Assembly (NCBI GenBank): GCA_003389385.1
Contig: QQVM01000020.1
Coordinates: forward strand, 186,001 to 250,000
Length of the DNA stretch: 64,000 bases
From: Bacteroidota bacterium
GTDB lineage: Bacteria > Bacteroidota > Bacteroidia > AKYH767-A > 2013-40CM-41-45
Reading direction: 5' to 3'
In this document: positions 7,939-54,769 of the stretch, piece after piece
Position numbering within the stretch: the stretch's first letter is position 1
How the letters are laid out: each line of letters starts with the position of its first letter
Notes under the pieces: model-generated
What the model was told of the DNA's origin: nothing
Databases searched by the model: none
Seen by the model: the letters and a program-made list of their open reading frames with translations, nothing else
Program-made: the position numbers and the translations under genes

Positions 7939-9945
7939 TCATCTTCTGATGATGATCTTATGAGTGCTAATGCCGGTGTTTGACTGAATCCTTAAAAAGT
8001 ATATACCTGACGCAAGCTTGTTCGATTTAACAGTTTGCATTTGCGAAACGCTATTTAACCCAAGTATTACGGAACCCTGCATGTTTACAAGTTCAACTTT
8101 CCTTTCTTCAGAAGTCTTCCATTTCAGATGAATCAAATCTGATGCTGGATTAGGGTAGATGCTGATATCAGAATTCGAAGTAAGATTGTTGACGTTCAAT
8201 GTAAAATCAATTGTGTGCATAGTTGTATTTGTGATCACTGGAGGATTATAGTCAAAATATATTCCTGCTGTGTTATACAGTACAGTGCCATGTGTTGTAC
8301 CGCTAAGCGGACGAATTCTGTAACTCACATATCCATGACTTTGAGGTTCGTTAGTGTTACTGTCAGGCAGCATGATGTTGTTGAACGTGAATCTTAAAAT
8401 ATCACCTGTCAGGATGTTGAAGCTCATAGGATGGCTATGTCCGGTGATTTCAAAAGAGTTTAAATCAAAATTCCTGTCAAGTGTGTCAAGAATATAAATG
8501 TCATAAGCTTCGGCAGTTCCGGTATTCTGAAACCGAATTGTGAAATCAATTAAAGTTCCGGGACGAATGGCATTTGTCGGACCTTCTCCTTCAGGAAAGG
8601 CTAACTTGTCATTCGGGTCCCAGCTTGTTCTAACAGGTGCGCACTGAATCACAGTGTTGTCAGCTGGATTCGTATCACCGTTAACTGGTTCGAGCAACAT
8701 GGTAACGCAAGCCGTGTCACCAAGTGTTGCGGATGTGGAAGTCATTACGTTGGCGCAATAACTCCAGTAATTTTGTGAAGGGGTATAATTCCAAATGAGG
8801 GTATCACCGCTGATTGTATAACTGCTTTGCGAATCCGGAAGCGCAGTGAGCATTGGATCCAGTATTACTTTTATTTGTCCTGATGGTGCATTGCATCCTC
8901 TGTCGTAGGCGAAAACGCAAACTCGTCCGGTTCTGCCTGGAATTATTCCGCTCAAAGTAACTGTTCCGGTGAGGTCAAAACCAGCGGGACAACTCAGGTA
9001 AAAGTCATTGCCGGAAGAAGGAACTGTTGAGACAATAAAATTACCTCCCGCAGGGCAGTTAACTACATAGTTTCCGCCATACCAATTATTTTGATGCACT
9101 CTGATTTCATATAATGGTCCATTAGGCACATTAAATGAATAAACTCCATTAATGTCTGTATGTGTCAATGCGACAATATTCCCGCCTGTGCTCAGGCTGA
9201 TGTTGATCCCTGCTAAAGGTGTGTCACCTGAATTAAAGATACAGTCAGTGTTATTGTCAAGATAGACAGTTCCTGCCAAAGGTCCGCAGTTGGAATTCAC
9301 TACGATAGGAACAGATATCATGGTATCGGCCACTCCACGTCCGCTAACAATAACCTGAGCGGTATATGTGCCTGCATTCGCATATGAATAGATCCACTGC
9401 GTGAAGAAAAAGTTTTGAGGATTCCACAGGTAGAATGTTGTATCGTTTCCATCGCCGTAATTGACCTCTATCAAGACTGAATCGGTTGTAGAAAAGCCGT
9501 TCGTCTGACCTTGCAGCATAAACTGCGCGTTTGCAGGTGATGTGCAGAAAATAGAAGAGATTGAATCAGGTCCAAAAAAAACAATGTCTATGAATGGAAT
9601 TCCTACTGAAGGAATCATGACCGACATGCAAAGAGTGTCTGTGCATCCCAGATCTGTTGTAACTGTAAGACAGACTGTGTATATGCCTGGAAAGCGGAAC
9701 GAATGAACAGGGTTCTGACTGCTGTCTGACGTTCCATCACCATAATCCCAAAACCAGTCGATTATTGTCCCGGGGCTTGTGCTTGACATATCTATGAACT
9801 GAATGACGGAGGAGTCTGGCGCAGCTGCATAATTCCAGTTGAAGGAAGCTGTGCATTGTGCACTGGAATCATTATTAAACGATGTCAAAAGTATAACCAT
9901 CGTCAACATGATCAGTTTTAAATAGGAATGGTAGAGTTTTTTCAT
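7939..9945 (-). CDS. Secreted PKD protein with T9SS type A sorting domain
   Basis: A 668-residue protein with a signal peptide at residues 1-29 (cleavage near SSAQC). A PKD domain follows (WDYGDGTSDSS, about residues 35-110). A second PKD-like domain covers about 115-215. A prealbumin-like/SdrD-type domain (GTVYLDNNTDCIFNSGD) comes next. Then a conserved block beginning WDPNDKLAFPEG and ending YFDYNPPVITN, which I recognise as a domain common in T9SS cargo (a DUF11-like/DUF7619 type). The C-terminal 75 residues (ISIYPNPASDLIHLKW to KIIIRR) are the type A sorting signal, so the protein should be secreted and anchored through the type IX system. No catalytic motif is visible; binding or adhesion is an inference. 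A terminator follows the stop. Confidence 0.9.
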   Translation of the reverse strand: MKKLYHSYLKLIMLTMVILLTSFNNDSSAQCTASFNWNYAAAPDSSVIQFIDMSSTSPGTIIDWFWDYGDGTSDSSQNPVHSFRFPGIYTVCLTVTTDLGCTDTLCMSVMIPSVGIPFIDIVFFGPDSISSIFCTSPANAQFMLQGQTNGFSTTDSVLIEVNYGDGNDTTFYLWNPQNFFFTQWIYSYANAGTYTAQVIVSGRGVADTMISVPIVVNSNCGPLAGTVYLDNNTDCIFNSGDTPLAGINISLSTGGNIVALTHTDINGVYSFNVPNGPLYEIRVHQNNWYGGNYVVNCPAGGNFIVSTVPSSGNDFYLSCPAGFDLTGTVTLSGIIPGRTGRVCVFAYDRGCNAPSGQIKVILDPMLTALPDSQSSYTISGDTLIWNYTPSQNYWSYCANVMTSTSATLGDTACVTMLLEPVNGDTNPADNTVIQCAPVRTSWDPNDKLAFPEGEGPTNAIRPGTLIDFTIRFQNTGTAEAYDIYILDTLDRNFDLNSFEITGHSHPMSFNILTGDILRFTFNNIMLPDSNTNEPQSHGYVSYRIRPLSGTTHGTVLYNTAGIYFDYNPPVITNTTMHTIDFTLNVNNLTSNSDISIYPNPASDLIHLKWKTSEERKVELVNMQGSVILGLNSVSQMQTVKSNKLASGIYFLRIQSNTGISTHKIIIRR

Positions 9946-16765: not shown

Positions 16766-17821
16766 TCAGGGTTTTGCAAATGCAGGATTAGTAAGGAAAT
16801 TGTAATCTGTCAGTGTTTTCAGGAATGCGATAATGTCGTCCATATCCTGTTGTGTCATTCTTCCTTTTACACTGGTGCGAAGGTTTGCGTCAAGATTTTG
16901 AGGGTAATGAAATCCGGTGTTGTAGTGATCCATGACTTCCTGTAAAGTGAAAAATCTTCCATCATGCATGTATGGCGCTGTCACTTCGATGTTTCTAAGA
17001 CTTGGCGTTTTAAATTTGCCAATATCACTGGCAAGCAAAGTGATTCTGGCTCTGCCACTGTCTGCAGCGATTGAATCCAGTCCTGTGTTCCTGAACTCAA
17101 AGTCGGTAAATGTGCTTCCCATAGTGTGACAGTGCACACAATCCCCTTTAAAAGGATCGGCATATAAATCCATGCCTCTTTGTTCCTGGGCGGTAAACGA
17201 ATCGAGTCCGCGCCTTACGCGGTCAAATTTTGAATCACCCGAAACCATAGTGCGCTCAAACTGGGCAATCGCTTTCATGATCATCGGTGTAGTGACTGTA
17301 CTTGATCCAAATGCTTTCCTGAACAATTCCGGGTACTCCGGATGAGCATTGAGTTCCTGAATTACATTAGCCAGGTCTTCGTGCATTTCCACCGGATTCT
17401 GGATCGGTCCGATCACTTGTGATTCCAGGTCTGCAGCGCCACCGTCCCAGAAGAAATTGCTGGCATAGCCAAGATTGAACAATGGCATTGCATTTCTGTC
17501 ACCGGGTATTCTGTCAATTCCAATGCTAAACTGTATTGTGCTGTCTGAAAATCCGAAATGTTGCTTGTGACAATCTGCGCAGGCCATTGTATTATCGCCC
17601 GAAAGAATTGGGTCGTAAAATAGTTTCCTGCCCAATGCAATCCCTTCTTCCGTCATTGGGTTATTTGCTGGAATTGGCATTGCAGGTAAGCCTGGAGGAA
17701 TATCGAGAATGTAATGCGAATGATTGTGTCCGTCTCCCGGATCTATAACATCATCTTCTTTTTTCTTGCAGGCAATGATTACAAAGCCGGCCAGCAATGC
17801 TGTCAGTAATAATTTACGCAT
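16766..17821 (-). CDS. Diheme cytochrome c peroxidase family protein, MbnH-like (copy 1)
   Basis: 351 residues with an N-terminal lipoprotein signal (LLTALLAGFVIIAC). Two c-type heme motifs, CADCH and CVHCH, and the MauG/CcpA superfamily block FKTPSLRNIEVTAPYMHDGR are present. The family either reduces peroxide or oxidises protein side chains. It follows the MbnP-like gene by only 4 bp, the arrangement known for MbnP/MbnH, where the diheme enzyme oxidises a Trp of its MbnP partner to kynurenine to build a copper site. I therefore favour an MbnH-like protein-modifying role over a classical peroxidase. A second, diverged pair lies at 40780-42592. Confidence 0.85.
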   Translation of the reverse strand: MRKLLLTALLAGFVIIACKKKEDDVIDPGDGHNHSHYILDIPPGLPAMPIPANNPMTEEGIALGRKLFYDPILSGDNTMACADCHKQHFGFSDSTIQFSIGIDRIPGDRNAMPLFNLGYASNFFWDGGAADLESQVIGPIQNPVEMHEDLANVIQELNAHPEYPELFRKAFGSSTVTTPMIMKAIAQFERTMVSGDSKFDRVRRGLDSFTAQEQRGMDLYADPFKGDCVHCHTMGSTFTDFEFRNTGLDSIAADSGRARITLLASDIGKFKTPSLRNIEVTAPYMHDGRFFTLQEVMDHYNTGFHYPQNLDANLRTSVKGRMTQQDMDDIIAFLKTLTDYNFLTNPAFAKP

Positions 17822-17825
17822 TTGA

Positions 17826-18602
17826 TTATTCAGATCTGTCGTATGAGAATGAATTCTGGAAGTTTTCGAAAAGGGAAGTCAGCCAGTCGCGGTCATCCAC
17901 ACTTGAGGATTGCCGGATGTTATTACCGTTGAATTCCACAGTATGAGTGGATCCGTAGAGTGAATTGAGGTCAAAGTTCAGATAAAGCTTCTTTTCATTA
18001 TTATCAATTCTGAGAGCTCCAATTGGAAGTTCTATCTGTGCAAGCACAGGGTCAGTACCATAGTGGTATAACAGGGGCTCAATGCTGCCGGTGCTGTCCA
18101 TGAAATCTCCTTCATGCTTGAAAAATATATAGCCGGTATTCCAAGTCCAAATCATCCCATGCACCGGATCAAGATCTCCGTCCTGCGCGCCTGTATGATT
18201 TCTAACCGGATCAACTCCAAGATAAAATCGGATTCGGTTATAAGTCCCGTTCGGAACTACATTGCCGTAAATTCTGCATGTTGAATCGACTTTCGCATTG
18301 ATCAGATCGTAATTATTGAATTTGAATTCTGAACTGTCGTCTTTGATTAAAACCACATTTGTGACATAATACTTCAGCATGTCTACCTGGTAGTTATTCC
18401 CGGCCGCATTCGTGTAAAGCCTTTGGCCAAATTGAATTTCCTGTCCACCCGCAAGATTTCTGAAAAAGATGGTAAGCTTACCGCTGGTGCCCGGATTAAC
18501 AGGAACCGGATCTTCGTTCTTTTTCTTGCAGGATCCAAAAGCAATGGAGAACAAAACTGCATAAATCAGCAGACTGACAGCTGAGGCTGAGTAGGATTTC
18601 AT
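17826..18602 (-). CDS. MbnP family lipoprotein (copy 1)
   Basis: The ORF opens at 18707, but Met36 (18602) starts a proper lipoprotein signal (SLLIYAVLFSIAFGSC), so I use 18602 (258 residues). The family signature is clear: YYVTNVVLI, GVDPVRNHTGAQ, and the WTWNTGYIFFKHEGDF block in which a Trp is the expected oxidation target in characterised MbnP. MbnP proteins are periplasmic copper-binding partners of MbnH-type diheme oxidases, here encoded 4 bp downstream. Copper binding is inferred from the family. The promoter region is shared divergently with the stress block starting at 18802. Confidence 0.82.
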   Translation of the reverse strand: MKSYSASAVSLLIYAVLFSIAFGSCKKKNEDPVPVNPGTSGKLTIFFRNLAGGQEIQFGQRLYTNAAGNNYQVDMLKYYVTNVVLIKDDSSEFKFNNYDLINAKVDSTCRIYGNVVPNGTYNRIRFYLGVDPVRNHTGAQDGDLDPVHGMIWTWNTGYIFFKHEGDFMDSTGSIEPLLYHYGTDPVLAQIELPIGALRIDNNEKKLYLNFDLNSLYGSTHTVEFNGNNIRQSSSVDDRDWLTSLFENFQNSFSYDRSE

Positions 18603-18696
18603 GGACTCGTAAATATGAGGAATACTTTCGCTAAAGTAAGAAAAAAAGCGTAAATTTCCTGTAGTGAGAGTGAAGCATGATTTTAGAGTAATCATG

Positions 18697-18711
18697 ATGA
18701 ATGTCATTCAT
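18697..18711. promoter_or_regulatory. Palindrome midway between divergent genes
   Basis: ATGAATG-T-CATTCAT is a perfect 7-1-7 inverted repeat. It overlaps TGATGAATGTCA (18695-18706), which fits TGAY-N4-RTCA. It lies 95 bp from both the mbnP-like start at 18602 and the DUF2267 start at 18802, so it could serve both directions. Confidence 0.45.
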
Positions 18712-34400: not shown

Positions 34401-35279
34401 ATGACAAAGTCTTCAGATTCAGGCCCAGTAAAGAAAATACTGATACCGACCGATTTTTCGGGGAATGCTTATAATGCGGTAATGTATGGAGTGAAGCTTG
34501 CAGAGAGCCTGAAATGCACAGCAATACTTTTTCATTCAGCTCATTTGCCAAAGATTGGCAGATTGGAAGATGTTATTTCTGGTGCTGGTTTAAATCGTGA
34601 AGATGAGTTGAATGCTGGCCTTTCAAACCTGAAGCAGCAGATGTTGTCCGCACATCAGAATGTCAATATCGAGACACTTCTGTCGGGAGGATTTGCTGTT
34701 GAGGAAATTATTCGTTGTGTTAAGGAACACAAGATTGACTTGGTTGTAATGGGCACCAAAGGGGCAGGCGCGATTTCCCAAGTGCTGATAGGAAGCAACA
34801 CTGCAAAAGTAATTGAGATGTGTCCGTGTCCGGTTCTGGCAATTCCGGAAAATGCAGGATTGGGTTCCTTGGACAAAATTGTTTTCGCTACGAATTTTGC
34901 TGATAATGATTTCCAGTCAATTTATCTTCTGGCAGGTATTTTCAAGCCATTCAATCCAGAGATTACCATCCTTCATATCGGAGACAGAACAGACCTGAAT
35001 ATAGAAAAGAAAATGTTCGACTGGTTTAAAGAACAAATCAGCACTACAATACCGTATGATAATTTCAAGTTTGAAATGATAGATTCAACAAATGTTCTTG
35101 AATCTCTGAATCGCTTTGTTGAGGATAATTCTGTCAATGTTATATCGGCTTCCACTCGTAAACGCAAGTTTTTTGATAAACTGACCAGCAGAAGTTTGAC
35201 GAAAAAACTGGCTTATCACAGCCATATTCCTTTGCTGGCTTTTCATGCACAGCATTCGGGAGGTGTGCCTCTTTTTTAA
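34401..35279 (+). CDS. Universal stress protein, two UspA domains (copy 3)
   Basis: 292 residues. Domain 1 starts KKILIPTDFSGNAYNAVMYG and carries the ATP motif GTKGAGAISQVLIGSNTA. Domain 2 starts KIVFATNFADNDFQSIY and ends TSRSLTKKLAYHSHIPLLAFH, nearly the same layout as the USP at 20424, so the two are paralogues. A single-gene unit with one of the best FNR-type promoters in the window. Predicted role: survival under low oxygen or energy limitation. Confidence 0.9.
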   Translation: MTKSSDSGPVKKILIPTDFSGNAYNAVMYGVKLAESLKCTAILFHSAHLPKIGRLEDVISGAGLNREDELNAGLSNLKQQMLSAHQNVNIETLLSGGFAVEEIIRCVKEHKIDLVVMGTKGAGAISQVLIGSNTAKVIEMCPCPVLAIPENAGLGSLDKIVFATNFADNDFQSIYLLAGIFKPFNPEITILHIGDRTDLNIEKKMFDWFKEQISTTIPYDNFKFEMIDSTNVLESLNRFVEDNSVNVISASTRKRKFFDKLTSRSLTKKLAYHSHIPLLAFHAQHSGGVPLF

Positions 35280-35304: not shown

Positions 35305-35370
35305 ATGACCGGAGTCAATACTTAGTTTGACTGCGGTCATTCGAACTTTATGAATTGTGTATCAATTTTG
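35305..35370 (+). promoter_or_regulatory. Twin FNR-type boxes upstream of ric
   Basis: Two palindromes, TGACCGGAGTCA (35306-35317) and TGACTGCGGTCA (35328-35339), stand 22 bp apart (two helical turns). Together 35305-35340 also forms one long inverted repeat (ATGACCG..AGTCAA / TTGACT..CGGTCAT) that could fold as a hairpin. The second box has CAATTTTG (35363-35370) at the 35-bp offset. The ric ATG is at 35391. Confidence 0.65.
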
Positions 35371-35390: not shown

Positions 35391-36104
35391 ATGATAGAAA
35401 GTAAAAGTTTATCTCAAATAGTGATGGAATATCCATTCACAGTGCCCGTCTTAGAGAAGTATCATATGGACTATTGCTGCAAAGGCAAGCGACTGTTGTC
35501 TCATAGTGTTGAAGATAAGAATTTGCTTAATGAAATTGTTTCTGAGATCGAAGTAGAAATTGAAAGGCAAAAACATTTGAGTGAATTGCCGGATTTTGAT
35601 AAACTCAATCTTCAGGATCTGATCCAGTACATTGTTGATAAGCATCACACTTACGTAAGAGAGTCTGTGCCGCTTATTTTATTTCATCTTGATAAGGTTG
35701 CCGGAAAGAAAGGGGACAGATATCCTGAAATGTTAAAAATTCGGGAACTTTTCAATGTGTTGAAAGAAGATTTGTTCTCACACATGGAAAAGGAAGAGCA
35801 AATCCTGTTCCCAAGGATACTGAGCCTTTTGAATAAGGGAGAGAATATCCCTGCCAGTGATGAAATTGATCAGTCATTCATCGCAGCTCCGGTGGGTGTT
35901 ATGGAGTGGGAGCATGAAAATGCAGGAAACATTCTGGCTGAGATCAGATCAGTTTCATCAAATTATAAACAGCCTAAAGATGCCTGCACAACACATACTT
36001 TGTGTTACCAGGAGTTACGCGAATTTGAAAAAGACCTTCACATGCACATTCATCTGGAGAACAATATTCTTTTCCCTAAATCACTTGGACTTTTTAAACT
36101 GTAA
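35391..36104 (+). CDS. ric: Iron-sulfur cluster repair di-iron protein (RIC)
   Basis: 237 residues. The N-terminal ScdA_N domain holds the CC motif (YHMDYCCKGKRLL). The hemerythrin-like domain (about 80-235) supplies the di-iron ligands: HHTYV near 85, HLDKV, HMEKEEQILFP, WEHENAG, and HIHLENNILFP. RIC proteins (YtfE/ScdA) repair or deliver iron to Fe-S clusters damaged by nitric oxide or oxidants, and are cytosolic. It heads a co-directional series followed after 23 bp by a NorC-like cytochrome, consistent with a nitrosative-stress theme. The twin FNR boxes predict strong induction at low oxygen. Confidence 0.92.
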   Translation: MIESKSLSQIVMEYPFTVPVLEKYHMDYCCKGKRLLSHSVEDKNLLNEIVSEIEVEIERQKHLSELPDFDKLNLQDLIQYIVDKHHTYVRESVPLILFHLDKVAGKKGDRYPEMLKIRELFNVLKEDLFSHMEKEEQILFPRILSLLNKGENIPASDEIDQSFIAAPVGVMEWEHENAGNILAEIRSVSSNYKQPKDACTTHTLCYQELREFEKDLHMHIHLENNILFPKSLGLFKL

Positions 36105-36127
36105 GCATTGCTGAGAAGAATGATGTG

Positions 36128-36514
36128 ATGCAAAAAAAACTTTCAAGAGTATATCAGCTTCTCATTGTAATTTTTGCATTGTTTACTGTTTGGGTGTATC
36201 TCGGTGCAACAAATTTGGCGGATAACGATATGGAATTCAGTGATGAGGCACTGTCCGGGAAAAAGTTGTTTCAGGATTATAACTGTTCATCCTGTCATCA
36301 GATATACGGACTGGGAGGATATCTGGGACCTGACTTAACTGATTTTGCATCGAAAGAATATAAAGGAGAAGATTACCTGAATGCGATGTTGCAGACAGGA
36401 CCTGGACAAATGCCGATATATTACTTCGATAGCGGGCAAGTTAGAAGTCTGTATGCTTATTTAAACGAGCTTTATCAAATTGATAAGAAAATGCAAAGTA
36501 TGTATCTAAAATAA
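36128..36514 (+). CDS. NorC-like membrane-anchored cytochrome c
   Basis: 129 residues from ATG 36128 (a GTG at 36125 is possible). One N-terminal membrane helix (YQLLIVIFALFTVWVYLG) anchors a mono-heme domain with NCSSCHQIYGLGGYLGPDLT, the CxxCH plus GxYxxPDLT pattern of NorC, and a likely axial Met in GQMPIYYF. NorC passes electrons to NorB in cytochrome c-dependent nitric oxide reductase. Unusually, the NorB-like gene is not adjacent: two lyase genes (2.8 kb) intervene. Gap to the first lyase gene is 11 bp, so all are probably cotranscribed. Confidence 0.8.
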   Translation: MQKKLSRVYQLLIVIFALFTVWVYLGATNLADNDMEFSDEALSGKKLFQDYNCSSCHQIYGLGGYLGPDLTDFASKEYKGEDYLNAMLQTGPGQMPIYYFDSGQVRSLYAYLNELYQIDKKMQSMYLK

Positions 36515-36525
36515 CTCATCGGGTA

Positions 36526-37914
36526 ATGAAGAAAAGTTCAGTAAAAAGATCCTGGGCCGAACCGTATAAGATTAAAATGGTCGAGCTACTTAAAATGAGC
36601 AGCAAAGAGGATCGGGAAAAGGCATTGATCGCTGCAGGTTACAATACCTTTTTGCTGAGATCGGCTGATGTGTACATAGACCTGCTGACTGACAGCGGAA
36701 CTTCTGCGATGTCTGACAGACAGTGGGCAGGAATGATGATGGGAGATGAAGCATATGCGGGCAGCGAAAATTATTACAACCTTGAAAAAGTTGTAAAAAA
36801 AGTATACGGGTACCGATATCTCATTCCAACACATCAAGGGCGCGGAGCCGAGCATATCCTTTCAAAAATCCTTATAAAAAAAGGCGATGTCATTCCTGGA
36901 AACATGTATTTCACTACCACAAGGCTTCACCAGGAGCTTTCCGGAGGTCGTTTCGAAGACATTATAATTGATGAAGCACATGATCCTGAAAGTGAGTTTC
37001 CTTTTAAGGGTAATGTAGATCTAGGAAAACTCGATCAAATCGTCAGCAGACACGGTGCCTCAAAAATCCCTTATGTTTCGATTGCAACTTCTGTGAACAT
37101 GGCAGGAGGACAACCGATTTCAATGGAGAATCTCAGGAACTTGCGCCAATATACTGCTGAGAAAGGAATAAGAGTGATTCACGACATGACCAGAGTAGCA
37201 GAGAACGCCCACTTTATTAAAGTTCGTGAAAAAGGATATTCCGGGAAATCCATTCGGGAAATTATACATGAAATATGCAGCCTTACCGATGGAGCAACGA
37301 TGAGTGCAAAAAAAGATGCATTGGTAAACATTGGTGGATTTCTCGCAGTCAACGAACGACAAGTTTTCGAACAGGCTCGAAGTCTTGTTGTTGTTTATGA
37401 AGGATTGCACACCTATGGAGGACTTGCCGGCAGAGATATGGAGGCAATGGCCATCGGAATTGAAGAATCTGTCCATGATGATCATATTCAGGCCAGAATA
37501 GGGCAGGTTGAATACCTTGGCAGAAAGCTCATGGAAAGTGGAATTCCTATTGTAAGACCTATCGGAGGTCATGGCATTTTCATAGATGCAAAAAAGTTTC
37601 TGCCTCATATAGATCAGAATAATTATCCTGCTCAGTCACTTGCTGCGGAGATATTCCTTGACTCAGGTGTGCGATCCATGGAAAGGGGAATTGTTTCTGC
37701 CGGAAGAAACCCAGACACCGGTAAAAACAATAAGCCTGAATTGGAGCTTGTCCGTCTTACCATCCCAAGAAGAGTGTACACACAAGCACATATGGATGTG
37801 GTGGCTGAAAGTGTGATTGAAGTGCACAGAAACCGAAAGCGAATCAGAGGGCTTAAAATGATTTATGAACCGAAGTACCTGCGCTTTTTTCAGGCCAGGT
37901 TCAAGCCTGTGTGA
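36526..37914 (+). CDS. tpl: Tyrosine phenol-lyase
   Basis: 462 residues of the beta-eliminating lyase family (fold type I, PLP). PLP-binding residues: Lys264 in TMSAKKDALVN, D221 and R224 in HDMTR. The substrate markers are those of tyrosine phenol-lyase, not tryptophanase: T130 in YFTTTR (Thr124 of the Citrobacter enzyme), VRSMERG with the phenol-binding Arg, and Phe454 in LRFF. Reaction: L-tyrosine + H2O to phenol, pyruvate and ammonia. No signal peptide, so cytosolic. It sits between the NorC-like and tryptophanase genes in one transcript. Very similar in motifs to enterobacterial TPL, but base composition is like its neighbours, so recent transfer is not evident. Confidence 0.92.
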   Translation: MKKSSVKRSWAEPYKIKMVELLKMSSKEDREKALIAAGYNTFLLRSADVYIDLLTDSGTSAMSDRQWAGMMMGDEAYAGSENYYNLEKVVKKVYGYRYLIPTHQGRGAEHILSKILIKKGDVIPGNMYFTTTRLHQELSGGRFEDIIIDEAHDPESEFPFKGNVDLGKLDQIVSRHGASKIPYVSIATSVNMAGGQPISMENLRNLRQYTAEKGIRVIHDMTRVAENAHFIKVREKGYSGKSIREIIHEICSLTDGATMSAKKDALVNIGGFLAVNERQVFEQARSLVVVYEGLHTYGGLAGRDMEAMAIGIEESVHDDHIQARIGQVEYLGRKLMESGIPIVRPIGGHGIFIDAKKFLPHIDQNNYPAQSLAAEIFLDSGVRSMERGIVSAGRNPDTGKNNKPELELVRLTIPRRVYTQAHMDVVAESVIEVHRNRKRIRGLKMIYEPKYLRFFQARFKPV

Positions 37915-37936
37915 TAATTTGGACTAAATGAGCTAA

Positions 37937-39313
37937 ATGGAATTCAAGACTATCATAGAACCCTTCCGAATAAAGTCAGTTGAACAAATTCAGTTGTCAA
38001 CTGCTGAACAAAGGCAAAAATTCATCAGGGAAGCCCATTACAATCCTTTCCTGCTGAGAAGCAACCAGGTGATCATCGACTTGCTGACTGACAGCGGAAC
38101 ATCAGCGATGAGCGCTGATCAATGGGCGGCAATCATGCGTGGTGACGAATCTTATGCAGGAGCTGAAAGCTGGTATCGTTTTGAATCTGCAGTTTCCGAT
38201 CTGACAGGAATGCCTTTCATTCTTCCAGCTCATCAGGGTAGAGCGGCGGAGAGAATTCTTTATTCAATTCGCGGAGGAAAAGACAAAATGTTTGTAAGCA
38301 ATACGCATTTTGATACAACTCGCGCAAACATTGAATTTACTGGAGCGATGGCAATGGATATTCCAGTGAAGGAATCTGCAAATTTCAGCAGCGAGGAAAG
38401 GTTTAAAGGGAACCTTGACCTGAAACTTTTAGAAGACCAAATTCTTGCTAATGGTCCGGAAAACATGGGAGGAGTGATTGTTACTGTAACAAATAATTCT
38501 GGTGGCGGTCAGCCCGTTAGTTTCAGCAACCTAAAGGAAGTAAGCAGAATATGCAGGCAACACAATGTCATGCTGATTCTGGATGCATGCAGGATTGCTG
38601 AAAACGCTTATTTCATCAGGGAGTTTGAAAAAGGATGTGAACAATATTCATATTCTGAAATCGCGAGGATGATGTGTGATCTCTGCGATGCTGTCATCAT
38701 GAGCGCGAAAAAAGACGCGCTTGTTAATATGGGTGGTTTTCTTGCATTACGGGATAAAAAGTTAGCGGATGAATGTATCCAGTCTTTGATCATTACTGAA
38801 GGTTTCACGACTTATGGCGGACTTAGTGGAAGAGATATGGAAGCGATCGCTGTAGGACTTAAGGAGGTTTTTAATCCGGATTATCTCAGATACAGGGTGC
38901 GAAGTACCGGTTATCTCGGAGATTCATTGAAAAAATCCGGAATACCTGTAATGTCTCCTTCTGGTGGACATGCCGTATACATAGTAGCTTCAGAGTTTTA
39001 TTCTCATATACCAGTGAATCAGTATCCCGGACAAACTCTTGTTTGCGAGTTGTACAAAGCAGGAGGAATCCGCGCAGTAGAAGTTGGTTCCGTAATGTTT
39101 GGAAAGTATGATGAGAAAGGAGATCTGATTCCTGCCAGATATGAACTTGTCCGTCTTGCAATACCAAGAAGAGTTTACACTCAAAGTCACATAGATTATG
39201 TCATTGAAGTTTGTGATCATGTATACAAGAACAGAAAGGAAGCTAGAGGAATGAAAATCACTTATGAGCCAGGTTTTTTGAGACATTTTACATCCAGATT
39301 TGAACCTGTATGA
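37937..39313 (+). CDS. tnaA: Tryptophanase
   Basis: 458 residues, same family as the preceding gene but with tryptophanase markers: D126 in HFDTTR (Asp137 of E. coli TnaA), IRAVEVGS in place of VRSMERG, and His450 in LRHF (His463 of E. coli). The PLP lysine is K259 in VIMSAKKDALVN. Reaction: L-tryptophan + H2O to indole, pyruvate and ammonia. No TnaC-like leader peptide or separate promoter is visible; the 22-bp gap to tpl implies cotranscription. The tpl/tnaA pair therefore covers two aromatic amino acids and is an old duplication with distinct specificities. The NorB-like gene follows after 35 bp. Confidence 0.92.
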   Translation: MEFKTIIEPFRIKSVEQIQLSTAEQRQKFIREAHYNPFLLRSNQVIIDLLTDSGTSAMSADQWAAIMRGDESYAGAESWYRFESAVSDLTGMPFILPAHQGRAAERILYSIRGGKDKMFVSNTHFDTTRANIEFTGAMAMDIPVKESANFSSEERFKGNLDLKLLEDQILANGPENMGGVIVTVTNNSGGGQPVSFSNLKEVSRICRQHNVMLILDACRIAENAYFIREFEKGCEQYSYSEIARMMCDLCDAVIMSAKKDALVNMGGFLALRDKKLADECIQSLIITEGFTTYGGLSGRDMEAIAVGLKEVFNPDYLRYRVRSTGYLGDSLKKSGIPVMSPSGGHAVYIVASEFYSHIPVNQYPGQTLVCELYKAGGIRAVEVGSVMFGKYDEKGDLIPARYELVRLAIPRRVYTQSHIDYVIEVCDHVYKNRKEARGMKITYEPGFLRHFTSRFEPV

Positions 39314-39348: not shown

Positions 39349-40719
39349 ATGAGACTTATAACTGAGAATAAAATCAGCCTTCTTACCTCAGTTTCTGTTA
39401 TCTCTGCGTTATTGTTTTTACTGATTGGCCTGTTGGCAGGATTAGCTTCCAGCCTACAATATATATTTCCCGATTTTCTGAAATCATCGCTGCCATTTTC
39501 TCATTTGCGTCCAATTCATACTTCACTTGTCATTTCCTGGATAGTAATGGCAGCCTGCGGTGGGATCTATTTTTACCTCAGGGAAATCAAAGGAAATGAA
39601 TTGAAATTTCAGCGGTTTGGATGGCTTCAGGTAATCATGTTTATTACAGCGAATATCATTGCCTGCTGTGCATACGCTTTCGGATACTTCGGTGGCAGAG
39701 AGTATCTGGAGTTTCATCCGTCAATAGCGATTCCCTTGCTGGTTTCATGGCTGGCTTTCGGAATTTTCTTCGTAAAAAATACCGCAGAAGTCCGAAAAAA
39801 TCCTCCGGTTTATATTTACATGTGGATTACCGGTATAGTATTTTTTATTCTGACACTTACAGAGTCTCAACTGTGGTTATTCAGGCATTTCTCCGGAAAT
39901 CCGGTAAGGGATGTCACTGTCCAGTGGAAAGCGCTAGGAATGATGGTCGGAAGTTGGAACATGCTTGTCTATGGAACAGCATTTTATCTTCTTGTCAGGA
40001 TAAGCGGTGATGAAAATTCCGCACGATCAGGCAAGTCTTTCTTCTTCTATTTTCTTGGATTTATAAATCTGCTGTTCAACTGGGGGCATCACACTTATGT
40101 TGTGCCAGCTTCTCCCTGGATAAAAAATATCGCTTACATCATCAGCATGACCGAATTAATCATTCTGTTCAGGATTATTTGGGAATGGAAGCAATCACTC
40201 AGAGAAAGTGCAAAACACCTTCATTTGATGTCTTACAGGTTCATCATGGCAGCGGACGTGTGGATTTTCATTAACCTTATACTTGCAATTGGAATATCAG
40301 TGCCTTGGGTCAATTCTTTCACTCATGGAACTCATATTACTGTGGCTCATGCAATGGGCGCAACAATTGGCATCAACTGCATGATTCTTTTCGCATCACT
40401 GATTTATATTCAGGAAAAAGTAAACAGTTCAGTCATATCAGGTAAAAGAAAATCACTCAATGCGGGATTTTTCGTCAGCAACTTTTCCTTATTTGTCTTC
40501 TGGATGGCCTTACTAGCCGCTGGGATGCAAAATATCATAAACCGAAATGAAATGCATTTCGGGCTTTTAAAGAGTTTGCTTCTCCCATACTACAAAGTTC
40601 TCTTTTTTTCAGGGGCTATGCTCTTCATTGGTTTATTGTTTTTGATTCTTCCTTTGATTTCACTTTATATACAAAGAAAATATCAGATTTCAAATAATCT
40701 TTCGTTTTCTCAACTTTGA
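39349..40719 (+). CDS. NorB-like heme-copper oxidase superfamily protein with altered metal ligands
   Basis: 456 residues, about 12 membrane helices. Recognisable landmarks: low-spin heme His57 (HLRPIHTSL), the GHH pair H247/H248 (two of three active-site metal ligands) and H334 in THITVAHAMG (heme b3 ligand). Compared by eye with Paracoccus NorB and with CcoN of this window, the segment VQWKALGMMVGSW (191-203) lacks the third metal His and the Glu of NorB, and M336 replaces the second low-spin heme His of the HxH motif. It may be a divergent nitric oxide reductase, or a heme protein with another activity. It is coexpressed with the NorC-like cytochrome. The stop codon lies inside an FNR-type box. 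Confidence 0.72.
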   Translation: MRLITENKISLLTSVSVISALLFLLIGLLAGLASSLQYIFPDFLKSSLPFSHLRPIHTSLVISWIVMAACGGIYFYLREIKGNELKFQRFGWLQVIMFITANIIACCAYAFGYFGGREYLEFHPSIAIPLLVSWLAFGIFFVKNTAEVRKNPPVYIYMWITGIVFFILTLTESQLWLFRHFSGNPVRDVTVQWKALGMMVGSWNMLVYGTAFYLLVRISGDENSARSGKSFFFYFLGFINLLFNWGHHTYVVPASPWIKNIAYIISMTELIILFRIIWEWKQSLRESAKHLHLMSYRFIMAADVWIFINLILAIGISVPWVNSFTHGTHITVAHAMGATIGINCMILFASLIYIQEKVNSSVISGKRKSLNAGFFVSNFSLFVFWMALLAAGMQNIINRNEMHFGLLKSLLLPYYKVLFFSGAMLFIGLLFLILPLISLYIQRKYQISNNLSFSQL

Positions 40720-40759
40720 TGCTGGTCATTTTTTTGCCGAGTATTTCCGCGGACATTTG
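40717..40759 (+). promoter_or_regulatory. FNR-type box and -7 element of second mbnP
   Basis: TGATGCTGGTCA (40717-40728) contains the stop codon of the NorB-like gene. GACATTTG (40752-40759), one mismatch from TAnnTTTG, follows at exactly 35 bp. This gives the mbnP/mbnH pair its own promoter in addition to read-through, and supports the ATG at 40780 as its start. Confidence 0.6.
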
Positions 40760-40779
40760 TGGGAAATTGCTCAACAATC

Positions 40780-41511
40780 ATGAGATTACGCCTTTTGTTT
40801 TTCCTGCTGCTCATCGCAGTCATAAATGCTTGCAAAAAAGATGATGAGCAGAGTGTTGCCCCTGGTATTGTTAATACAAGTCTGAATATTGAGATATCTT
40901 ATGAAGTAGACGGTCAGTCTCTTCGATTTGATACTTCAGGCTATACATGTGATGCAGGATATAATTACAGCGTAAGCCGGCTTTGGTATTACCTTGGGAA
41001 TGTATGCATGATACGTCAGGATTCTTCATTGGAACTTTTGAAGAATTTTCATTTCGCTGACGCAGCAGATGCAAGCACTTCTCAAATTGCAATATCAAAT
41101 GCAAAGGAAGAAAGCTACATAGGATTGCAGTTTTTAATAGGTTTGGATTCCTTGCACAATCAGCCCGGATATTTACCTGCTACCAGCCAGAATCTGAATA
41201 TGGAATGGCCTGTCATGATGGGAGGGGGTTATCATTTTCTCAAGTTTGAAGGTCACTTTAGTGACTCTTCGGGACTTCATGGTTTTGCAATGCATCTTGG
41301 TACTAATAATGCTTTGGGAAAATGTGTCATTTATCATCCAATACTTATTCAATCAGGAACTAACAAGTTGCGACTCGCCATGAACCTTAATGAATGGTTC
41401 AGGAATCCTTTTTTGTATGACTTTAATATTGATGGAAATTATTCCATGGGTAATATGGCCGCAATGATGAAATTAAGCCAAAACGGAAATGATGTGTTTA
41501 TTGTCAAATAA
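40780..41511 (+). CDS. MbnP family lipoprotein (copy 2)
   Basis: The ORF opens at a GTG (40759), but the ATG at 40780 starts a lipoprotein signal (MRLRLLFFLLLIAVINAC), giving 243 residues. MbnP features: SRLWYYLGNVCMI, GLDSLHNQPG, and the MEWPVMMGGGYHFLKFEGHF block. Compared with copy 1 (WTWNTGY) only the first Trp of the W-x-W motif remains, so this belongs to a different MbnP subfamily. It should be a periplasmic copper-related partner of the diheme protein whose gene overlaps its end by 23 bp. Confidence 0.8.
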   Translation: MRLRLLFFLLLIAVINACKKDDEQSVAPGIVNTSLNIEISYEVDGQSLRFDTSGYTCDAGYNYSVSRLWYYLGNVCMIRQDSSLELLKNFHFADAADASTSQIAISNAKEESYIGLQFLIGLDSLHNQPGYLPATSQNLNMEWPVMMGGGYHFLKFEGHFSDSSGLHGFAMHLGTNNALGKCVIYHPILIQSGTNKLRLAMNLNEWFRNPFLYDFNIDGNYSMGNMAAMMKLSQNGNDVFIVK

Positions 41512-42592
41512 AGTAATTAGGTCTTTGTACCTCTTAATCCCCGCATTCTGCCTTACATTCTTTTTCAATTCCTGTACAAGAGAGAATGAGGAGGAGATTA
41601 TCGCGAACAATCAATACCAGACTGTTCCTTATCATATCAGAGTGCCTTCAGGCTGGCCTGAACCATCCATCCCGGATTTTAACCAGACGACTGTGGAAGG
41701 TGTTCGACTGGGACGAATGCTTTTTTACGATCCAATCCTTTCCAGCAACGGACTAACCTGTTCTTCCTGCCATCCTCAGGACAGGGCCTTTGCTGTTCCA
41801 TTCAGAATTAACAGCAGAAATGAAGTTGTCAGTATCCCTCCGATAATGAATCTGGCTTTCAATCCGGATTGGGGATGGAAAGGACAGGATCTGGTTCTTG
41901 ACCATTTACCGCTGACGGATTTCAGTCCTGAATTTTTTAATACCAATATGGACACACTTGTCAGCAGAATTAAAAAGCATAATCTCTACCCGCTTTATTT
42001 TCGAGAAGCGTTCGGAATCGGAGATGTGGCCAATATTTCACATTCAGAACTGCAGCACAAAATTTCTTATGCTTTGATACAGTTTGTCAGAACAGTGATT
42101 TCTGATAATTCAAAATTTGATAAAGTGATGAGGCGCGAGGCAGCTTTTTCGCCGGAAGAACTTTCCGGAGCAAATATCTTCTTCACTGAAAAAGGGGATT
42201 GTTTTCATTGTCACGGCACACCATTATTTACTAACAATACTTTCAATAATACAGGACTGGATTCCATTTTGTCCGGTCAAAATCTTGGCCGTTACCTTTT
42301 CACCGGACTTAACAGCGACAAGGGAAAGTTTAGTTCACCTTCTTTACGGAACATTGAGCTGACAGCGCCTTATATGCATGACAGTCGCTTCAATACCCTC
42401 GAAGAAGTTGTGGAGTTCTATAATTCCGGCGTTAGATGGAATTCTCCGAATATTGATCCGGTGATGACTAAGCCATTCAAAGAATACGGATTAAATCTGA
42501 CTCCTTCCGAAAAAAGTGATCTTATCTCTTTTCTGAAAACACTGACAGATACTTCATTTTTAACCAACCCGGATTATGCAAATCCCTTTTAA
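41489..42592 (+). CDS. Diheme cytochrome c peroxidase family protein, MbnH-like (copy 2)
   Basis: 367 residues with a lipoprotein-type signal (LLIPAFCLTFFFNSC), two heme motifs (CSSCH and CFHCH) and the superfamily block FSSPSLRNIELTAPYMHDSR. It differs from copy 1 at MHDS versus MHDG and is about as diverged from it as two members of one family. The 23-bp overlap with mbnP copy 2 shows a dedicated pair. The expected role is oxidation of the partner protein (Trp to kynurenine in known MbnP/MbnH), with peroxide reduction as the alternative. Starts at 41489 or 41492 are equivalent. Confidence 0.83.
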   Translation: MMCLLSNKVIRSLYLLIPAFCLTFFFNSCTRENEEEIIANNQYQTVPYHIRVPSGWPEPSIPDFNQTTVEGVRLGRMLFYDPILSSNGLTCSSCHPQDRAFAVPFRINSRNEVVSIPPIMNLAFNPDWGWKGQDLVLDHLPLTDFSPEFFNTNMDTLVSRIKKHNLYPLYFREAFGIGDVANISHSELQHKISYALIQFVRTVISDNSKFDKVMRREAAFSPEELSGANIFFTEKGDCFHCHGTPLFTNNTFNNTGLDSILSGQNLGRYLFTGLNSDKGKFSSPSLRNIELTAPYMHDSRFNTLEEVVEFYNSGVRWNSPNIDPVMTKPFKEYGLNLTPSEKSDLISFLKTLTDTSFLTNPDYANPF

Positions 42593-54592: not shown

Positions 54593-54769
54593 ATGTCTGT
54601 AATCTTCCTCCTTATCATTATTAGCCTTCTGATTGCCATTGGTTTTCTGCTCGCCTTTTTATGGAGCGTCAGAGATGGTCAATATGATGATGATTATACT
54701 CCTTCTGTACGGATACTTTTCGAAGAAGAAACTGACAACAGCAAAAAAGAACCAAACTCTGAAATATGA
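54593..54769 (+). CDS. ccoS: cbb3 oxidase assembly protein CcoS
   Basis: 58 residues from ATG 54593 (MSVIFLLIIISLLIA); the track start at 54584 adds three residues. One membrane helix with FLLAFLWSVRDGQYDDDYTPS, the xFxWAxxxGQFDDxxxP signature of CcoS. It helps insert heme and copper into CcoN. The stop overlaps the ccoNO start (ATGA), so translation is coupled. Confidence 0.93.
   Translation: MSVIFLLIIISLLIAIGFLLAFLWSVRDGQYDDDYTPSVRILFEEETDNSKKEPNSEI

Follow-up and report, generated by a model that had tools for sequence, protein, structure and literature searches.

A widespread NorB-like family with a remodelled active site, sister to the bacterial NO reductases and associated with NosZ

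Can a NorB-like protein that has lost a histidine and a glutamate of the active site, and that carries methionine in place of a low-spin haem ligand, be a NO reductase? The question is raised by a gene, here called norB', in the window, the whole 64,000-nucleotide stretch of DNA that was analysed. A reading-frame check confirmed that the gene is intact, as the preliminary description had stated, with an open frame running from the ATG at 39349 to 40719 on the forward strand (+) and encoding 456 aa. Its product matches Pfam COX1 in a profile search (1.6e-33), and an AF2 model (pLDDT 92, pTM 0.92) finds its best solved match in cNOR chain 3o0r_B (TM 0.82); the COX1 match and a TM of about 0.8 to both cNOR and cbb3 place the protein in the multi-helix COX1 fold. 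By sequence, the closest solved chains, and the only ones matched, are the cNOR NorB chains 3o0r_B and 4xyd_A. No NCBIfam family claims the product in an NCBIfam scan, the best being CcoN with 45 bits against a cut-off of 583.

Alignment with Pseudomonas cNOR (Pa NorB), together with the residue census given below, bore out the claim that one FeB histidine and the glutamate are missing and that methionine replaces a low-spin haem histidine. The FeB ligand His207 corresponds to Gly197, Glu211 falls in a gap (Gly201 if ungapped from the QW anchor), Glu215 becomes Asn204, and the low-spin haem ligand His349 becomes Met336. The histidines said to remain had been numbered exactly: H57 is equivalent to His60, H247/H248 to His258/His259 and H334 to His347. 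Ser277 is likewise S266, while S317 corresponds by position to Thr330 and E118/E121 to Glu135/Glu138, of which Glu138 has a role in the periplasmic proton entry region of cNOR (PMC3431322). The third active-site glutamate, Glu280, on which the preliminary description was silent, is kept as E269; in cNOR simulations it is water-bridged to FeB, and it forms a cluster with Glu211 and Glu215 (PMC3431322). The gene and its informative codons are as follows.

39349..40719 (+): norB'-like gene, 456 aa, COX1/NorB fold with remodelled active site (Pfam, alignment, census, model)
39517..39519 (+): His57 codon, low-spin haem ligand, equivalent to Pa NorB His60 (alignment, census)
39700..39711 (+): E118-E121 codons (EYLE), equivalent to Pa NorB Glu135/Glu138, periplasmic proton entry region (alignment, census, PMC3431322)
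39928..39930 (+): Lys194 codon, almost invariant and preceding the lost His by one helix turn (census)
39937..39939 (+): Gly197 codon, position of FeB ligand His207 (alignment, census)
39949..39951 (+): Gly201 codon, at or beside the site of Glu211, itself deleted or replaced (alignment, census)
40087..40092 (+): His247-His248 codons, the two remaining FeB ligands (alignment, census, 57-sequence alignment)
40153..40155 (+): Glu269 codon, counterpart of Pa NorB Glu280, invariant and put forward as third metal ligand (alignment, census, PMC3431322)
40348..40356 (+): His334-Ala-Met336 codons, with the proximal His of haem b3 retained and Met in place of the low-spin haem His (alignment, census)

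A lone sequence with ligands missing would suggest a non-functional relic, or else a misalignment. Orthologues with 39-53% identity, however, turned up in roughly half of the 42 genomes examined from the window's order, and GTDB genomes contain 511 loci that code for relatives; the best 80 of these 511, which form the loci set, come mostly from Bacteroidota (Chitinophagales, Flavobacteriales, Cytophagales, Saprospiraceae), with a few Pseudomonadota MAGs. A residue census of these best 80 loci plus the order and phylum relatives covered about 108 real family members (36-53% identity) and revealed G197 in 107, M336 in 107, H334 in 108, H247/H248 in 107/108 and H57 in 105. E269 is present in nearly every real member, and the helix VI His and Glu are missing from nearly all; deviants are few, and two of them are rows with the wrong ORF extracted. 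In a 57-sequence family alignment G197, G201, N204, H247, H248, E269, H334, M336 and N343 are invariant, and S266 and S317 stay invariant or nearly so across the family.

A displaced third His was sought in the family alignment, and no new invariant His appeared elsewhere: the only invariant histidines are 247, 248, 326 and 334, with H57 and H329 nearly so, H326 being also present in ordinary NorB and H329 varying to R, Q or Y. With the helix VI His replaced by Gly and the low-spin His by Met family-wide, four are kept of the six conserved histidines that are cited as a signature for the haem-copper superfamily as a whole (PMC3413370). Judged by sequence, this is a selected site and not a decayed one, because the substitutions are fixed in about 108 homologues while H57, HH247/248, E269, H334, S266 and S317 stay. 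A relic, a pseudogene or a wrong alignment was rejected, since the same odd residues are invariant in about 108 divergent homologues with intact ORFs and a conserved operon, and this explanation can be dismissed for practical purposes. The sequences do not bear out the expectation that normal NO reduction should be disabled once a FeB ligand is missing: two FeB His stay invariant, as does the Glu280 equivalent, and the putative NO dismutase is also without one FeB His (PMC3413370).

In a maximum-likelihood tree the family forms one clade (support 100/99), so the substitutions do define a clade, a point that had been marked for checking. It is sister to cNOR, qNOR and NO dismutase (NOD) together (98/94), outside CcoN and far from the A-type and sNOR-like sequences, with a long-branch warning that makes monophyly more certain than the exact sister relation. 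The proteins thus lie outside the known cNOR/qNOR/NOD clade, in a family of their own that lacks the helix VI residues. The earlier suggestion of an unrecognised NOR family is strengthened by this position, by the lack of an NCBIfam claim and by a genomic context of NO and N2O genes. The group occurs widely, had carried no label before, and is sister to the bacterial NO reductases. No description of a NorB-like family of this kind was found in the literature searched, a 2024 PNAS paper on NOR diversity lying outside that search; the HCO catalogue in that paper may contain the clade unlabelled.

The window holds, on one strand, the order RIC - norC' - two tryptophanase-like genes - norB' - MbnP - MbnH, with gaps of about 10-40 bp or overlaps. 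The full order recurs in locus L034 and partly in L036, L042 and L038, which makes the claimed cotranscription with a NorC-like gene plausible.

35391..36104 (+): RIC/YtfE/ScdA-type di-iron protein that deals with nitrosative Fe-S damage; the putative operon starts with this gene (TIGR03652 hit of 209.5 bits, exceeding the cut-off)
36125..36514 (+): norC', encoding the partner subunit, a NorC-like cytochrome c with one haem (CSSCH) and a membrane anchor (Pfam, structure-chain match, cluster adjacency)
36526..39313 (+): tandem pair of tryptophanase/tyrosine phenol-lyase-like genes lying between norC' and norB' (an arrangement shared by L034, L036, L042 and L038)
40759..42592 (+): MbnP-like and MbnH/MauG-like pair downstream of norB', probably in the same transcription unit (Pfam/NCBIfam)

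The norC' product matches the NorC chain 3o0r_C (2.1e-6), and a NorC-like cytochrome c gene lies immediately upstream (-1) of norB' in 69 of the best 80 of the 511 loci. In L034, L036 and L038 too, the MbnP/MbnH-MauG pair stands 3' of norB', in the order seen here. Recurrent neighbours in the same best 80 are Rrf2 regulators (31), RIC (21) and Crp/Fnr regulators (18), the two regulator types being named from their sequence without a family scan; nos genes lie within about 8 genes in 13. In six Flavobacteriaceae loci (L071, L075, L076, L080, L103, L113) norC'B' is found downstream of norCBQDE, and in six loci (L069, L073, L087, L088, L089, L091) it adjoins a qNOR-like (NOD-like) gene of 780-820 aa. 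Three such proteins were read and carry the NOD changes HH to HN and SALE to STLQ, the features used for comparison being HH to HN and Glu280 to Gln (PMC3413370).

These adjacent NOD-like genes, the sister relation to a clade that contains NOD and the precedent that NOD sets for loss of a FeB His (PMC3413370) would suit NO-dismutase-like or otherwise new nitrogen-oxide chemistry at the altered binuclear centre. NOD, however, loses a different His (helix VII, HH to HN) and exchanges Glu280 for Gln, both of which norB' keeps, and it is a fused qNOR-type protein, whereas norB' has a cytochrome c partner, suggesting net electron input. Such chemistry is accordingly held to be quite improbable.

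Several further genes were seen beside these. NOD-like proteins (HH to HN, Glu280 to Gln) occur in Bacteroidota at L165 3427-5838, L166 1445-3790 and L167 1097-3445, in two of these loci divergently adjacent to a norB'-like gene. L166 also encodes (8210-9874) a COX1 protein of 555 aa whose helix VI active-site position is Gln (GHSSQQ) and in which GHFK replaces GHFH, so that Lys takes the place of the low-spin haem ligand; it lies near NOD and the norB' family in genome G479. A COX1 protein of 633 aa with additional sequence at its N-terminus (L173 425-2323, reverse strand (-)), in a norB'-bearing genome, groups near CcoN on a long branch. A membrane protein of about 400 aa recurs near norC'B' and RIC (L072 11312-12559 (-), L175 14911-16119 (-)); the L072 copy has no Pfam match and the L175 copy no NCBIfam match, and it may be NO-related. 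The window itself holds a second MbnP-like/MbnH-MauG-like pair at 16766-18707 (-), assigned by similarity of appearance alone.

Upstream of the operon, putative control sites were detected.

35306..35339 (strand not applicable): tandem CRP/FNR-type palindromes TGAYN4RTCA at 35306 and 35328, 22 bp apart, upstream of the RIC-norC'-norB' operon

A TGAYN4RTCA palindrome precedes norC' in 19 of 69 loci against 1.3 expected, while a search there for TTGAN6TCAA and other fixed motifs gave nothing. Identical 22-bp pairs precede a stress-protein gene at 34401 (34317/34339) and ccoNO at 54766 (54506/54528) in the window, as well as a nosL-like gene in the nos cluster elsewhere in the genome (L174 11980/12002); none of 5000 random placements gave three equal spacings. 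Placed before redox and stress operons, the tandem pairs look like a two-dimer activator site. Tandem pairs were also seen in L034, L042 and L038.

Genome content ties the family closely to N2O reduction. Clade II NosZ is encoded in 45 of 49 norB'-bearing genomes, the members without it including three proteobacterial ones. NirK is present in 17 of the 49 and NirS in 2; true cNOR or qNOR occurs in 12 and NOD-like genes in 6 (18/49 together), so that norC'B' is often additional to a NOR and not a replacement for one, and simple NOR replacement was rejected as a general rule. Four more of these genomes carry a sNOR-like gene with Asn in the active site, and most nirK-positive norB' genomes also have a true NOR, NOD or sNOR-like gene. 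NorD is found in exactly the nine cNOR-bearing genomes and in 0/40 of the others. In a phylum sample of 396 genomes NosZ occurs in 130 (33% background), compared with all eight norB' family genomes, two of which are partial matches; this 8/8 co-occurrence has a chance probability of about 1e-4, ignoring kinship. The genome samples were scored on the best few candidates per genome, so that counts are lower bounds, with kinship uncorrected.

Ordinary NOR or NOD is only weakly linked to NosZ in the same sample (21/130 vs 30/266), and the tight norB'-NosZ link may therefore mean something other than NO reduction. The complex might be an accessory of N2O respiration that passes electrons to NosZ or protects it, its NO chemistry being incidental; nos genes close by in 13/80 of the best loci and the same tandem sites before nosL in the window's genome agree with such a role. 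As 122/130 NosZ genomes in the sample are without the family, it is nonetheless no general NosZ partner, the three proteobacterial members do without clade II NosZ, and Rrf2, RIC, cNOR and NOD neighbours point to NO. A NosZ-supporting role is thus considered rather unlikely.

Individual genomes bear on NO reduction itself. Aequorivita aquimaris (G453) encodes three COX1 proteins, namely A-type, CcoNO and norB', and has nirK and nosZ, with no cNOR, qNOR or NOD found in its genome. An island of about 32 kb unites nirK (318609-320075), ccoNO, RIC, Rrf2, norC'B' (339062-340808) and nosYFDL-nosZ (to 350052); in A. vladivostokensis, norCBQDE adjoins the same norC'B'. A MAG of the window's genus-mate (G437) likewise has nirK and nosZ and no cNOR, qNOR or NOD. 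If nitrite is in fact reduced all the way to N2 in G453 and G437, norC'B' would be required for it. In the window's own genome NosZ was found, and no NirK, NirS, cNOR, qNOR or NorD.

We infer that norC'B' has about an even chance of being a separate complex of the NO-reductase type whose binuclear centre has been remodelled, and NO reduction as its function is rated at much the same level. Fixed substitutions, the clade, the cNOR-like model, the NorC-like partner, the NosZ link, the NO neighbours, the palindromes and genomes G453 and G437 all argue for this reading, and the absence of a FeB His and of Glu211, both regarded as essential in cNOR, argues against it. The norB' product would be the large subunit of a two-subunit, cytochrome-c-linked complex on a separate branch of the cNOR/qNOR/NO-dismutase lineage. 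Electrons would pass from the NorC'-like haem c to low-spin haem b, with predicted His57/Met336 ligation expected to raise its potential, and on to haem b3, five-coordinate with His334 as its ligand. The metal at the distal site, opposite haem b3, would be held by His247/248, with E269 moving in as third ligand to give a 2-His-1-carboxylate site instead of 3-His plus Glu, a ligand role deduced for E269 from its homology to Glu280 only. Protons would arrive from the periplasm via the retained E118/E121-S266-S317-E269 positions, as in cNOR. The most likely reaction, in which 2 NO with 2e- and 2H+ give N2O, would remove NO leaked or made by nitrite reduction and feed NosZ, with norC'B' presumably induced at low O2 or by NO.

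The preliminary description had also offered a sensor or an electron conduit, and nothing here is specifically in favour of either. A membrane NO sensor or scavenger, binding NO without reducing it and signalling to or protecting the NO/N2O machinery, would have haem b3 facing a distal pocket that is free of metal or filled by Lys194. In its favour, two catalytic residues have gone, the pocket would be opened by Gly197/Gly201, nearly invariant Lys194 lies one turn before the lost His, Rrf2 and RIC are NO-responsive neighbours, and norC'B' often stands beside a true NOR or NOD. NorD, which is required for FeB insertion in cNOR, is confined to the nine genomes with true cNOR, but qNOR too works without NorQD (PMC9976466), making its absence weak evidence. 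The protein has no output domain, most loci keep the NorC-like donor, and (near) invariance of HH247/248, S266, S317 and E269 is nothing that a metal-free pocket needs. We regard this alternative as a minority possibility, the foremost among the rivals.

The NO-reductase reading has a wider form, in which a family whose non-haem metal sits in a 2-His-1-Glu site and whose low-spin haem has His/Met ligation is a new NO reductase lineage, performs the NO-to-N2O step in many nosZ (and sometimes nir) Bacteroidota without recognised nor, and was missed by surveys for want of the canonical ligands; this falls somewhat short of an even chance. A combination of nir and nosZ without nor has been reported for 9% of Bacteroidota denitrifiers in a study that removed Nor candidates without ligand residues by hand (PMC12569097), a step that would hide the norB' family. 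For many bacteria that consume N2O, norC'B' may supply the step of NO handling that was missing; if so, N2O sources and sinks are to be partitioned differently, and the idea can be tested in isolates such as Aequorivita aquimaris. A family in hundreds of genomes without two signature His also asks which ligands NO chemistry really needs.

Among known systems, cNOR (PDB 3o0r, 4xyd) is closest: it shares the fold, a single large subunit with a NorC-like monohaem cytochrome c (by the 69/80 and 3o0r_C matches given above), the gene pair and operon setting, and the positions H57, HH247/248, H334, H326, E118/E121, S266 and E269. The norB' product differs in having G197 and a gap or G201 in place of the third FeB His and Glu211, Asn for Glu215 and a predicted H57/M336 low-spin haem instead of a bis-His one; it belongs to a separate clade, and maturation genes, judged on NorD, are missing from 40/49 norB' genomes. 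NOD (qNOR-like; PMC3413370) shares the larger clade, the loss of one FeB His and sometimes the neighbourhood, yet it loses the helix VII His and Glu280, keeps the helix VI His and HxH, and is fused, whereas norB' keeps HH and E269 without fusion. qNOR, a member of the same larger NOR clade, carries an N-terminal fusion domain and retains all six His. CcoN, the cbb3 oxidase subunit I, resembles norB' in fold (TM about 0.8) and is its best NCBIfam match, far below cut-off, but keeps the CuB His in WYGHN and HxH and is separated from the norB' clade at 100/99. Murali et al. (2024, PNAS) reportedly proposed sNOR, eNOR, gNOR and nNOR and catalogued new HCO families. These four are described as B-family related (PMC11388526) and are alternative NORs whose active-site residues are altered, as those of norB' are; gNOR and nNOR were compared by description only, and the sNOR-like set (GHxxxN) from norB'-bearing genomes falls far from the norB' clade in the tree.
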